Assembly: GCA_031267895.1 (NCBI GenBank)
Contig: JAIRYF010000023.1
Span: forward strand, 1-52,677
DNA length: 52,677 bases
Direction: 5' to 3'
DNA from: Candidatus Methanoplasma glyptotermitis
GTDB lineage: Archaea; Thermoplasmatota; Thermoplasmata; Methanomassiliicoccales; Methanomethylophilaceae
The position numbers were made by a program, and so were the translations under genes. Positions 10,083 through 31,816 of this stretch are shown in pieces. The notes beneath the pieces are model-generated. The model saw nothing but the letters and a program-made list of their open reading frames with translations, did no database searches and was not told where the DNA came from. How positions within the stretch are numbered: the stretch's first letter is position 1; every line of letters begins with the position of its first letter.

Positions 10083-10263
10083 CTCATTTCATCAGCCAGC
10101 AAACAAATTTCAAAAGAGATTAAATTGCAGATCGGCGGCCAATCAGTTATCGTACTGAAAATCGGTCCTCAGACCTGAGGTAACATCAGCTCGTATCAGC
10201 GTTTGAATAGCTTACGATGTGAATATTTCATTTCAGTTATCCTATCGTTCCTCGGCTTTCGTG

Positions 10264-13455: not shown

Positions 13456-14538
13456 TCACCTCTCCGTACAGCTTATGCAGGGATCTATCGTCAGTATTAT
13501 CACAGGCACATCTGCCAAGTCGCAGCCCTGCAGCATTCTGACCATGGAGGGCAGATTCATATTCGTAGGCGTCCTGACCCTCATCCTCTCAAGATATCTG
13601 GTACCGTTTCCTCTCACATAGTAGAGTGCTTCGCCGCGGGGCTGTTCCAGCCTCATCATGAATTCTCCTGCCTGAAGAGGGCCTCTGACCTGCACTTCCA
13701 CTGGACCGTCCGGCATCACGGAGGCTGTTTTCTCCACAATATCAAAAGATTGATTCAGCTCGGATATCCTGACCTTACATCTTGCATAACAGTCCCCTCC
13801 CTCCCCGATCACAGGTTCGAATCCAAGTTCGCCGTATTTGCACATGCCATTCAGCCTCATATCCTGATATACCCCGGATGCACGGGCTACCGGTCCGACC
13901 GCGCAGAGTTCTTCCGCGTCCTCTTTGGACAGAATACCGACACCGCAGAGCCTGCTCTTTACCGAGGTGTCTCTGAGGAACACATCCGTCAGTTTCCGAG
14001 TCTCCTTCCTTGTCTCCCTCACTTCCGACACTATCCTGTCCAGCATCTCCTCTTCAACATCTCTCCTGACCCCGCCGACTTTGCAGACCGAATGAATAAC
14101 CCTTCCGCCGGTGGTCAGGTCGAACATGTTCAGAATCCTCTCGCGGACCTTCCACGTATGCATGAAAAGACTCTCGAATCCGAGGGCATCGGCGGTGAGG
14201 CCGAGCCAAAGCATATGGCTGTGTATCCGGGACAGTTCATGCCACATTGTTCTGAGGTAATCTGCTCTTTCGGGCACCTCGACACCCATCAGTCCCTCGA
14301 CCGCTGTGACATATCCCAGTCCGTGGCCGAAACTGCATATTCCGCATATCCTCTCGATGACATAGACCAATTCGGGATATTCTCTGACCTCTGCCAATTT
14401 TTCAAGTCCTCTGTGTATGAAACCTATCGACGGTACTGCCTCGATCACCTTTTCATCTTCTATCACAAGATCCAGATGCACAGGTTCCGGAAGTATTGGG
14501 TGCTGAGGTCCGAACGGAATTACAGTCCTTTTTCCCAA
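13456..14538 (-). CDS. echE: Ech [NiFe]-hydrogenase large subunit EchE, TTG start
   Basis: 360 residues. Both metal-binding motifs are present: RICGICSFGH (Cys65, Cys68, His72) and the C-terminal DPCISCTER (Cys354, Cys357), so it is a true hydrogenase and not a NuoD homologue. The protein ends right after the last motif, without the cleavable extension of most NiFe hydrogenases, as expected for Ech. The start is TTG at 14538: GGAGG sits 8 nt upstream inside the end of echD, and translation from there gives the family start GKRTVIPFGPQHP. Confidence 0.93.
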   Translation of the reverse strand: MGKRTVIPFGPQHPILPEPVHLDLVIEDEKVIEAVPSIGFIHRGLEKLAEVREYPELVYVIERICGICSFGHGLGYVTAVEGLMGVEVPERADYLRTMWHELSRIHSHMLWLGLTADALGFESLFMHTWKVRERILNMFDLTTGGRVIHSVCKVGGVRRDVEEEMLDRIVSEVRETRKETRKLTDVFLRDTSVKSRLCGVGILSKEDAEELCAVGPVARASGVYQDMRLNGMCKYGELGFEPVIGEGGDCYARCKVRISELNQSFDIVEKTASVMPDGPVEVQVRGPLQAGEFMMRLEQPRGEALYYVRGNGTRYLERMRVRTPTNMNLPSMVRMLQGCDLADVPVIILTIDPCISCTER

Positions 14539-26846: not shown

Positions 26847-26925
26847 TGTATCACCAAGTATTGTTCAGTCTGCACCGGCCGCATGCAAGCGGACCGGCAC
26901 CGAACACACGAGTCTGCAAAAGTTT

Positions 26926-26937
26926 CCCCCCCCCCCC
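26926..26937. repeat. 12-nt poly-C/poly-G tract
   Basis: Uninterrupted 12 C on the plus strand, 80-91 nt upstream of the membrane protein starting at 26846 on the minus strand, between its start and the predicted TATA region near 26990. Confidence 0.9.
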
Positions 26938-27144
26938 TTCAGGAGAGGGAAGAACAGGATAACCGGAGACCGTGGAAACGCATGCAATATATAGATTATA
27001 AATCTATCTCAGAAATGAGGGCATGATCATATTTCTCTGCTCTTGTCCCCACATGGTTTGACTTTAAGACGATACGGCATCATTCACGTTCCTGTGCCTT
27101 TCCGCCGCGGACTCTGAAACCCTATTCTGCCGACACTTACAAAA

Positions 27145-27175
27145 GGATAGTTATTATATTATCTAAGTACTATCC
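27145..27175 (+). promoter_or_regulatory. Inverted repeat around the TATA box of the DUF1638 gene
   Basis: GGATAGT (27145-27151) and ACTATCC (27169-27175) form a perfect 7-bp dyad with a 17-bp spacer that contains the TATA element TATTATATTA. The start codon is about 26 nt from the TATA centre, so the mRNA is probably leaderless. A regulator binding here would block the promoter. Confidence 0.5.
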
Positions 27176-27181
27176 ATATCC

Positions 27182-27994
27182 ATGGTCAAAGGAACCTTGG
27201 GCATAATCGGCTGTCCCATTCTCGAGGATGAGATTATCTACTCTCTCGGCAGCGAGAAGGATGAAAAAACGATCTATGTCGTAGACACACCTCCCTCGCA
27301 TACTCTGAAGGAAAAGCTTGAACGGAGCGGGACTCCGTTCTCCGTCATCGGCGAGTGGGAATTCAACAACGGTTACTCCGGGATTGATCGCGACAGCGGA
27401 TTTAATATTGTGGTTCTGATGAACAAGTTGGGCCTCCACACGAGACCAAAGGTCCTCAGAGAGACAATCGAAGATCAGCTGAGGTTCCATCAGAACAATT
27501 TTGATGTCATTGCTCTGTACTACGGTATGTGCGGAAATGCCGGGTGGGATGTGTCCAAATGGGCTTCCGGGACCCTTAACATCCCGGTCTTCGTGTTCCG
27601 CGATGCGAACGGAGAAGTGTGCGACGACTGTATAGGCGTGGCCGTCGGAGGGCATTCTAGATACTGTAACTTCGTCAAAAAGTACCCAGGGATGTTCTAT
27701 GTCACGCCGAACATAGCCGGGAATTGGGACGGATACTCGGAAGAACTCGATTTCTGCAAGGGATTCGAGATCATGGACATACACACAGTAAAGGAAGTGT
27801 TCCAGGTGTACGGCTACAGCAAAGCAGTGAAAATCGACACGGGACTGGGAATCAGAGGCTAGGAGTTCGAAAAGGGCTGCGAACGATTCTCCAACGAGAC
27901 AGGTTTGGAGTTCACGGTCCCGGAACCGGGTTCTGTCGACCTGTATCCCACGGTAGCCATATACAAAGATGCCAAGAGTGCCCTGAAGTCCTGA
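27182..27994 (+). CDS. DUF1638 family protein with in-frame TAG (predicted pyrrolysine)
   Basis: 270 residues if TAG at 27860-27862 is read as an amino acid (residue 227), otherwise 226. The body has DUF1638 features: YYGMCGNAGWD, IPVFVFRD and CDDCIGVAVGGHSRY. After TAG the same frame stays open for 43 codons to a TGA at 27992. That stretch is protein-like (EFEKGCERF, PEPGSVDLYPTV) and completes the conserved C-terminal region that begins KAVKIDTGLG. Pyrrolysine is inserted at TAG in Methanomassiliicoccales. DUF1638 function is unknown; Cys residues may bind metal. A recent nonsense mutation is the alternative. Confidence 0.75.
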
Positions 27995-28059
27995 GGTGTG
28001 ATTGTTCCGCAGGAAGAGAGACCGTAATATTGTTATAATCCGGCGCAATCCCATATATC

Positions 28060-28688: not shown

Positions 28689-29510
28689 ATGCCGTTGCCT
28701 CCCTTGAATATCCAACTCCGCGACAGAGTATTCAGATTATATTCCAGAAGAGAAAGAGAGGCGGTTGTGATGGCTTACCTTTTCAGGGGGCTGCCACACA
28801 GAAAAATCGATGATTCGGTATTGGGATTGGACAGCACCCAAACAAAAGGATGGCAATCCATGGGAATCCTGCACCACTACGGCATAACAGACGAATTCAA
28901 AGGAATCTTCTGCGGAAAATCCGTAGATCAGATTCTGAATTCATTTCCAGAAAACCAGGAATATGATTTTCTGTACGACATACTGAAGGAATCTGCCAAT
29001 GAAAAGACGGAATGCAGCGAATACACAGTGAGCGGGAAAATCGGCCTTGACAAAAAAGAAATGCGCAATGTCAGAGTGAATCAGTCTGACTTCAGAAGTA
29101 AAATCCTGACTGCATACGGTTCATCGTGCTGCGTAACGGGTATCAGAGAACCGCAGTTGCTGAGAGCCAGCCACATAAAACCATGGTGCGAAAGCAACGA
29201 GTTTGAAAAAGTTGATGTTCACAACGGATTATGTCTCAACGCACTGCATGACTGTGCGTTCGACTGCGGAATAATTACCGTAGAGTCGGGAACACACAGA
29301 ATCAAGCTGTCCTCGAAAATAGAGGAAACGATGGATGCGGAAACATACGACGAATATTTCCGCAGATATGATACCGCAGTGATAAATGCGGCTCGGTCGG
29401 ATGACGGGCCGGCGGACAGTTATCTGGACTACCATAACAAAAACATCTTCGAAAAAAGGACAAACAGAATCAAAATCGTGTACGAAACTGTAATTGACCA
29501 GTTGTTCTGA
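28689..29510 (+). CDS. HNH endonuclease (predicted restriction-type)
   Basis: 273 residues. The C-terminal half is an HNH_2-type nuclease domain: FRSKILTAYGSSCCVTGI, then LLRASHIKPWCES with the catalytic His, then NGLCLNALHDCAFDCGIITV with the Asn and second His. The N-terminal half is helical and unassigned. The ATG at 28689 is 27 nt from the TATA centre, so leaderless. No methylase is adjacent, which leaves its role in restriction open. Confidence 0.8.
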   Translation: MPLPPLNIQLRDRVFRLYSRREREAVVMAYLFRGLPHRKIDDSVLGLDSTQTKGWQSMGILHHYGITDEFKGIFCGKSVDQILNSFPENQEYDFLYDILKESANEKTECSEYTVSGKIGLDKKEMRNVRVNQSDFRSKILTAYGSSCCVTGIREPQLLRASHIKPWCESNEFEKVDVHNGLCLNALHDCAFDCGIITVESGTHRIKLSSKIEETMDAETYDEYFRRYDTAVINAARSDDGPADSYLDYHNKNIFEKRTNRIKIVYETVIDQLF

Positions 29511-29751
29511 ACCTGCATAGGTTCTGCACCGTCAGATTCAGAGAATACGTGCCGACAGCCGGACTGAACATCAGACTCGGATTCCGACCGACGGGGTTGG
29601 ATTTTTTTTCTTATTCTACGATTTGCAGATAGTATTATATGAGAATCATCGGATACAGACTGTACAACATAAAGGTGCAAAGGAAAAGCAGGCATTTTCT
29701 GCCGCTTTCTGTTGCGCCCGATTGCGATCCTGCCCCATAGAGACGATCTTC

Positions 29752-30903
29752 ATGAGCGATATCAACACCCGATTAGTACACGGAGTCATCGACGGAGACT
29801 CCAGAACCGGTGCCGTCAACGTTCCGATATATCAGACATCGACTTACAGACAGCCGGAACTCGGCCGCAACACCGGTTACGAGTACTCCAGAACAGGGAA
29901 TCCCACGAGGGAAGCCCTTGAGAAGCAGATCGCCGATCTTGAAGGCGGGAAGGCGGGGTTTGCCTTTGCCTCCGGCATGGCTGCTATAGATGCGGTCCTG
30001 AGGCTCTACGGTTCCGGAAGAACCGTTGTCATCTCCAGCAATGTCTACGGCGGCACATTCAGAATATTGGATAAGATTTTCTCGCATTTCGGTCTCGGTT
30101 ACAAAATCGTGGATACTTCAGACCTCAGCGCAGTGGAGAAGAGCATCACTCCGGATGTCTCGGCATTTTTGATCGAAAGTCCGGCGAACCCGCTCATGAC
30201 CGTCACCGACATATCAGCTGTTTCGGATATCGCCCGCCGCCATAACATCCACACAATCGTAGATAATACGTTTATGACCCCGTACCTTCAAAGACCAATA
30301 GAGTCGGGTGCGGACATCGTGGTGCACTCCGCAACGAAGTATATAGGAGGACACAGCGACCTTGTGGCCGGTCTTGCCGTCGTGAACGATGAAGAACTCG
30401 CGGAGAGACTTCATTTCATACAGAACGCCACGGGCGGGATACTCCAGCCTTTCGATTCATTTCTGGCTCTCAGAGGTATAAAGACGTTGAGTGTCAGAAT
30501 GGACCGCCATGTCTCCAACGCAGAACACGTAGCGGAATATCTTCGGAAACATCCGGCCGTGTCGAAGGTTTACTACCCAGGCCTGAAAACAGACCCGGGA
30601 TATGAAATCAACAAAAAACAGGCTTCCGCGGGAGGAGGGATGATCTCTTTCGATCTGAAGGAGGGATATGATCACCGCGCATTTCTCTCGTCCACCGAGT
30701 TGATCGCACTCGCCGAGAGTCTCGGAGGGGTGGAATCACTGCTTTGCCATCCCTCAAGCATGACACATGCCTCAATCCCCGCGGATATCCGAAGGAAGGT
30801 TGGGATAACCGACGGGCTGATCCGGCTGTCGGTTGGGATAGAGGACAGAAACGACATAATCGCCGATTTGGAAACGGCATTCGGAAAATCAAAGCGGGTG
30901 TGA
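29752..30903 (+). CDS. Cystathionine gamma-lyase / gamma-synthase (PLP enzyme)
   Basis: 383 residues of the Cys/Met metabolism PLP family. Features: PIYQTSTYRQ, EYSRTGNPTREALE, the SGMAAIDAVL loop, and the PLP lysine in HSATKYIGGHSD near residue 200. The C-terminus has ESLLCHPSSMTHA. The ATG at 29752 matches the family start. Paired with the next gene it suggests transsulfuration from homocysteine to cysteine (lyase); the synthase reaction cannot be excluded. A TATA-like AGTATTATAT lies near 29632. Confidence 0.9.
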   Translation: MSDINTRLVHGVIDGDSRTGAVNVPIYQTSTYRQPELGRNTGYEYSRTGNPTREALEKQIADLEGGKAGFAFASGMAAIDAVLRLYGSGRTVVISSNVYGGTFRILDKIFSHFGLGYKIVDTSDLSAVEKSITPDVSAFLIESPANPLMTVTDISAVSDIARRHNIHTIVDNTFMTPYLQRPIESGADIVVHSATKYIGGHSDLVAGLAVVNDEELAERLHFIQNATGGILQPFDSFLALRGIKTLSVRMDRHVSNAEHVAEYLRKHPAVSKVYYPGLKTDPGYEINKKQASAGGGMISFDLKEGYDHRAFLSSTELIALAESLGGVESLLCHPSSMTHASIPADIRRKVGITDGLIRLSVGIEDRNDIIADLETAFGKSKRV

Positions 30904-30907
30904 GGGT

Positions 30908-31816
30908 TTGTACTACGACTCGGCGTCTGCGATGATCGGGAACACTCCGATCGTCAAACTGAACAGTCTGTGCCGGAACCCGAATGTGAACATCTACGCA
31001 AAGCTCGAGCTTGCGAACCCATCCGGGAGCGTGAAAGACAGAGTCGGATCGTACATGATCAGAGATGCCGAAAAAACAGGAGTGCTCCGCCCGGGACACA
31101 CTATAGTGGAAGCAACCGCAGGCAACACCGGCATGGGTATAGCTTTCGCCGCGCTCGGCCGCGGGTACAGGACAATATTCGTTGTTCCGGATAAATTCTC
31201 CTGCGAGAAACTTACTCTGATGAGAGCACTCGGAGCCGAGATCGTCACCACGTCCTACGACGACGGCATGCTGGGTGCAGAGAAAAAAGCAGAGGAACTG
31301 CTTGAAAGCATCCCAAACTCTGTATGCCTCAGACAGTTTAGGAATCCCAGCAATCCTCTTGCCCACTACGAAACAACGGGACCTGAGATATACTCGGATC
31401 TGAACGGAAAGATAACTCATTTAGTAGCCGGAGCCGGAAGCGGCGGAACATTCACCGGAATCATGAGATACCTGAAAGAAAAAGACAGGAGAATCAGAGG
31501 AGTTCTCGCGGATCCGATAGGGTCGGTGATCGGAGGAGGAGAAAAGGGACACTACAGCATTGAAGGCATCGGCAACGATTTCGTGGCAGATACTATGGAT
31601 ATAAGCTTCATCGACGAAGTGCAGAAGATATCGGACGACGATGCCGTGAACGGCTCGAGGCTCCTTGCGAAAAAAGAGGGCATATTCGCAGGAGCATCTT
31701 CAGGTGCGGCAGTAGTGGCCGCGCTCAGGACCGCCGAGAAGCTTGACCGCGGCGACATAGTGGCCGTTCTTCCCGACCGCGGAGACCGTTATTTCAGCAA
31801 GAATCTATACGCATGA
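30908..31816 (+). CDS. Cystathionine beta-synthase-like / cysteine synthase (PLP enzyme), TTG start
   Basis: 302 residues. It starts at TTG 30908, 4 nt after the upstream stop. It has the PLP lysine in NPSGSVKDRVG, the EATAGNTGMGIAFAA loop and GAGSGGTFTG. EGIGNDF near residue 215 resembles the MccA/CBS type more than classical CysK. No C-terminal CBS regulatory domain is present. With the preceding lyase it forms a two-gene transsulfuration unit; O-acetylserine or O-phosphoserine sulfhydrylase activity is the alternative. Confidence 0.88.
   Translation: MYYDSASAMIGNTPIVKLNSLCRNPNVNIYAKLELANPSGSVKDRVGSYMIRDAEKTGVLRPGHTIVEATAGNTGMGIAFAALGRGYRTIFVVPDKFSCEKLTLMRALGAEIVTTSYDDGMLGAEKKAEELLESIPNSVCLRQFRNPSNPLAHYETTGPEIYSDLNGKITHLVAGAGSGGTFTGIMRYLKEKDRRIRGVLADPIGSVIGGGEKGHYSIEGIGNDFVADTMDISFIDEVQKISDDDAVNGSRLLAKKEGIFAGASSGAAVVAALRTAEKLDRGDIVAVLPDRGDRYFSKNLYA

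Follow-up and report, generated by a model that had tools for sequence, protein, structure and literature searches.

Introduction

Does a TAG inside a gene of Candidatus Methanoplasma glyptotermitis, a methanogenic archaeon of termite guts, end the encoded DUF1638 protein, or is it read as the amino acid pyrrolysine (Pyl)? The genus Methanoplasma belongs to the Methanomethylophilaceae and has been reported from arthropod guts only (PMC10684969). The window analysed here is a whole contig (C33) of 52,677 nucleotides, from a genome of 1.72 Mb in 72 contigs that is 97.9% complete. An earlier note on this DNA had described a frame broken by TAG at 27860 which stays open for 43 more codons to a TGA, and had proposed that the TAG encodes pyrrolysine at residue 227. 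We address this proposal through the gene and its homologues, the Pyl machinery of the genome, the use of TAG as a stop, and the selection acting beyond the TAG.

The DUF1638 Gene and Its Interrupted Frame

The features of the locus, in window coordinates, are as follows.

27151..27159, plus strand: TATA-like AT-rich stretch, about 23-31 bases 5' of the ATG, read by eye
27182..27994, plus strand: DUF1638 gene, 270 residues, with TAG as codon 227 and TGA as its end
27428..27922, plus strand: match to PF07796 (DUF1638), residues 83-247, 85.3 bits, E 5.6e-24, spanning the TAG
27860..27862, plus strand: in-frame TAG, predicted to encode pyrrolysine 227, where the closest relative has GAG
27863..27991, plus strand: C-terminal part after the TAG, 43 codons, conserved in orthologues
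27992..27994, plus strand: TGA, the true gene end

The frame starts with the ATG at 27182, and the position of the TATA-like stretch would suit a leaderless mRNA. The gene belongs to PF07796, as it scores above the Pfam gathering cut-off of 27 bits, and its TAG falls inside the domain. The 43 codons after the TAG contain neither a frameshift nor a second stop. Structurally, the locus presents an in-frame TAG with conserved protein on either side. The coordinates and the family given in the earlier note both proved correct, as did its warning that an annotation ending at the TAG would lose about one sixth of the protein; standard gene calling would remove 44 residues, inside the domain, and would also shorten other genes of this genome.

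On the opposite strand, an open reading frame of 294 aa (27170-28054) was judged to be a shadow, because it has stops in most homologues and the Pfam match lies on the plus strand. A run of about ten C is present in the upstream intergenic region (26925-26940). At 28689-29510 the window encodes an HNH protein like phosphorothioate-DNA restriction endonucleases, with a score of 56.6 bits that lies below the cut-off of 180.

Homologues and the Residue at Position 227

The 18 homologues aligned, being 267-280 aa in length, match the protein on either side of the TAG, uninterrupted by any stop; none of them ends near it, and the open frame is thus more than chance. The 14 nearest orthologues (61-80% identity) are all continuous through the position, where 12 carry Glu (GAG or GAA), one Gly (GGG) and one Ala (GCG). 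These 14 also keep the motifs TGLE, PGS, YP and IY.DAK downstream. The alignment that the earlier note had advised bears out its claim that the 43 codons are conserved and complete the C-terminal region. The nearest orthologue, that of Candidatus Methanoplasma reticulitermitis (80% protein identity), has GAG at the position. The simplest history would be a single G-to-T change in this species.

A wider search with the protein matched 94 of 102 genomes of the family, and among the matches listed, no gene other than the query's own carries an internal stop. Unlike the TAG of mtmB, this TAG is not conserved among relatives and is found in one genome only; a conserved TAG is not required for neutral Pyl proteins. 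The base itself rests on the single MAG of the species.

Two further DUF1638 genes involve a TAG. The orthologue in G007, a single-contig genome of the same genus, has Glu at the position, but a TAG directly after codon 270, readthrough of which would add 14 residues before a TGA. Another family member, G033, carries a DUF1638 gene with an in-frame TAG (C107:4338-4826). No PylS above the cut-off was found in G033, and that TAG could reflect decay there.

The Pyrrolysine Machinery

A search of the genome for pylTSBCD, as the earlier note had recommended, returned all five genes complete, lying side by side in the same direction on contig C35. PylS, PylB, PylC and PylD all exceed their NCBIfam cut-offs. 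The tRNA gene was found by pattern search and was not detected in an ARAGORN run.

C35:7979-8048, minus strand: pylT, a 70-base tRNA-like gene with CTA at the anticodon position, just upstream of pylS

The cassette is adjoined by ramA (TIGR04270, 701 bits) and by two mtmB genes, each matching PF05369 at more than 760 bits with the canonical TAG mid-gene; the mtmB TAG is present in G007 as well. With pylS, pylB, pylC, pylD, a CUA tRNA-Pyl and TAG-bearing mtmB all present, the organism is predicted to decode Pyl.

TAG Use across the Genome

Stop codons were surveyed in 58 contigs, covering 0.97 of 1.72 Mb, against 1.2 Mb of G007. The 419 conserved gene ends comprise 321 TGA, 97 TAA and a single TAG, the latter closing a weak frame of 96 aa. 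Triplet composition predicts 16.5% TAG stops, or about 69 of 419 (binomial p about 1e-31), and one in 419 excludes even the rate of M. luminyensis, which ends 11.3% of its genes with TAG (PMC4153887). The organism appears to have nearly abandoned TAG as a stop.

Internal stops were counted on a codon-usage gene call, used to reduce antisense shadow frames and wrong starts, and those near gene starts, mostly misplaced starts, were left uncounted. Read individually, the clean mid-gene stops outside mtmB came to about five TAG, one TGA and one TAA, a small sample. A D-aminoacyl-tRNA deacylase (PF04414; C71:26376-27221) has a lone in-frame TAG at C71:26754, where G007 has Ala. What is probably an ABC permease (C57:9891-10880) has an in-frame TAG at 10185 followed by conserved protein, and a conserved protein without a name (C30:13856-14485) has one at 14318. 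The latter gene directly precedes another DUF1638 gene, the genome's second. Additionally, a bacterial-type AspRS (C14:2535-4352) contains a lone in-frame TAG at 2856, which is Glu in G007 and which no other genome of the genus shares. An argument from the essentiality of AspRS was considered and dropped, since an intact archaeal-type AspRS is encoded on C29 (L093:5439-6938).

Selection beyond the TAG

Against the nearest orthologue, pN/pS is 0.096/0.587 before the TAG and 0.189/0.394 after it, so that pS exceeds pN on both sides. When changes on the gene's own branch were polarised by outgroups, they numbered 10 in 226 residues before the TAG and 5 in 43 after it (Fisher p 0.07). The C-terminus is also the faster-evolving part in several comparisons from which this gene is absent. 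Residues V258 and A259 are unusual, the orthologues having Glu and Arg. The region after the TAG looks constrained, with a weak and nonsignificant hint of relaxation; the two unusual residues and the slightly raised rate of change leave room for a recent relaxation.

Function of the DUF1638 Protein

In Phaeobacter inhibens, methionine synthesis requires the DUF1638 protein PGA1_c13340 along with a corrinoid activase that is RamA-like; methionine rescues the mutant, whose fitness correlates with that of methionine synthase genes (PMC5764234). A later study treats this protein as part of cobalamin reactivation (PMC12478193). The role is a proposal for one bacterial member (PMC5764234); the present analysis covered the co-occurrence of DUF1638 with RamA-like genes. 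DUF1638 is present in 40 of 245 Thermoplasmatota genomes, all 40 of which also carry the RamA-like domain PF14574, itself found in 49 of the 245. Beyond the order, ten genomes have PF14574, and the only two with DUF1638 are among them (p 0.002). Phylogeny accounts for much of this association, as most of the signal comes from one clade. Our best guess, which we hold to be somewhat better than even, is that DUF1638 proteins help RamA-like ATPases to keep corrinoid (B12) methyl-transfer proteins reduced and active.

Other approaches gave less. An AlphaFold model built from four sequences had a mean pLDDT of 56, too weak for a fold search; it puts residue 227 close to where a predicted helix begins and is too weak to place it further. 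A search of solved structures returned no match to the DUF1638 protein, and nothing about function could be read from the neighbourhood conserved in relatives, where two small genes and a metallophosphoesterase lie downstream. At 29623-31816 lies a gene resembling cystathionine gamma-synthase/lyase, with a cysteine synthase-like gene after it, a pair shared at this locus only with the nearest relative among those compared.

Weighing the Explanations

The proposal of the earlier note, that the TAG at codon 227 is probably read as pyrrolysine, is the best explanation, to which we give a probability of about 0.86, and it survives the three refutations that the note had set for it. It draws on the continuous orthologues, the pyl cassette, the near absence of TAG stops and the other genes with a lone TAG. 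Mechanistically, a GAG would have become TAG by one transversion, with loss of the Glu codon in this species. PylBCD would supply pyrrolysine, PylS would charge tRNA-Pyl with it, and this tRNA would decode the UAG, giving one full-length protein of 270 residues. Such a TAG would be tolerated because UAG would be decoded efficiently in this organism and is almost never a stop. Pyl 227 is probably a near-neutral replacement of Glu without a special role, as the site is variable and the TAG confined to one genome; a catalytic role is unlikely. Most likely, the readthrough is real, though an ordinary consequence of the organism's altered genetic code.

A recent nonsense mutation would instead stop translation at the TAG, leaving a truncated protein or a young pseudogene. 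The uniqueness of the TAG among the matches listed and the slight excess of protein changes past it would fit such an event. However, a mutated gene of this kind would lie in a genome that has a full pyl cassette and practically never uses TAG as a stop, its 43 downstream codons would have stayed free of further damage with pS above pN throughout, and the same TAG-only interruption recurs in several unrelated conserved genes. We consider this explanation unlikely. A slimmer chance attaches to a sequencing or assembly error in the MAG hiding a real GAG, to which the triplet is one base away, in the only genome of the species. The mid-gene excess of TAG over TAA and TGA, small as the sample is, counts against it, because random errors would spread more evenly over the three stops.

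It is scarcely credible that the gene makes a regulated dual product, in which Pyl supply sets the amount of full-length protein and makes it responsive to methylamine metabolism. DUF1638 would connect to corrinoid activation, and ramA adjoins the pyl and mtmB genes, as such regulation would have it. Yet no orthologue has the TAG, the RNA structure after it is unremarkable (z 0.19), no better than shuffles, as is also true of both mtmB genes, and so few TAG stops suggest that decoding is constitutive. A related idea, very doubtful as well, is that Pyl 227 ties a helper of corrinoid activation to Pyl supply, the protein being truncated inside its domain when Pyl is lacking. If that were true, corrinoid-dependent metabolism would need the Pyl cassette for more than the methyltransferases alone.

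With decoding as Pyl preferred, the locus offers a clear case of how a stop codon becomes a sense codon: a variable site has tolerated a change from GAG to TAG confined to one species. Proteome searches of termite-gut Methanoplasma should read TAG as Pyl, a residue about 109 Da heavier than Lys.

Comparison with Known Systems

The closest comparison is Candidatus Methanomethylophilus alvus, of the same family but another genus, which likewise has a full pyl cassette and very low use of TAG stops, 1.6% (Borrel et al. 2014, PMC4153887). Of its predicted Pyl proteins, 16 are not methyltransferases, and for half of these, two other genomes have homologues free of Pyl (PMC4153887). Species-specific TAG codons in genes with TAG-free homologues are common to both organisms. 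DUF1638 is not named among the 16, and our literature search found no paper naming both DUF1638 and pyrrolysine.

MtmB (PF05369), present here in two copies, relies on the pyl cassette of this genome for the reading of its TAG as Pyl, but that TAG is conserved and its Pyl catalytic, whereas the TAG of DUF1638 is not conserved. An archaeal code in which all TAG codons are pyrrolysine was reportedly described in 2025; TAG is almost never a stop there and genes contain internal TAG, as in this genome. The Pyl of tRNA-His guanylyltransferase was reportedly tested in the laboratory, while the DUF1638 case is known from sequence alone. PMC4153887 cites the gain of that Pyl as neutral (Heinemann et al. 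2009), and there too Pyl would occupy a dispensable, variable position of a non-methyltransferase. PGA1_c13340 shares with our protein the family PF07796 and a proposed role in B12 reactivation with a RamA-like protein, but it is bacterial and without Pyl, and the two are likened by Pfam family. Within the Methanomethylophilaceae, predicted Pyl proteins other than methyltransferases are already known, and the DUF1638 gene is a further example of this known process.
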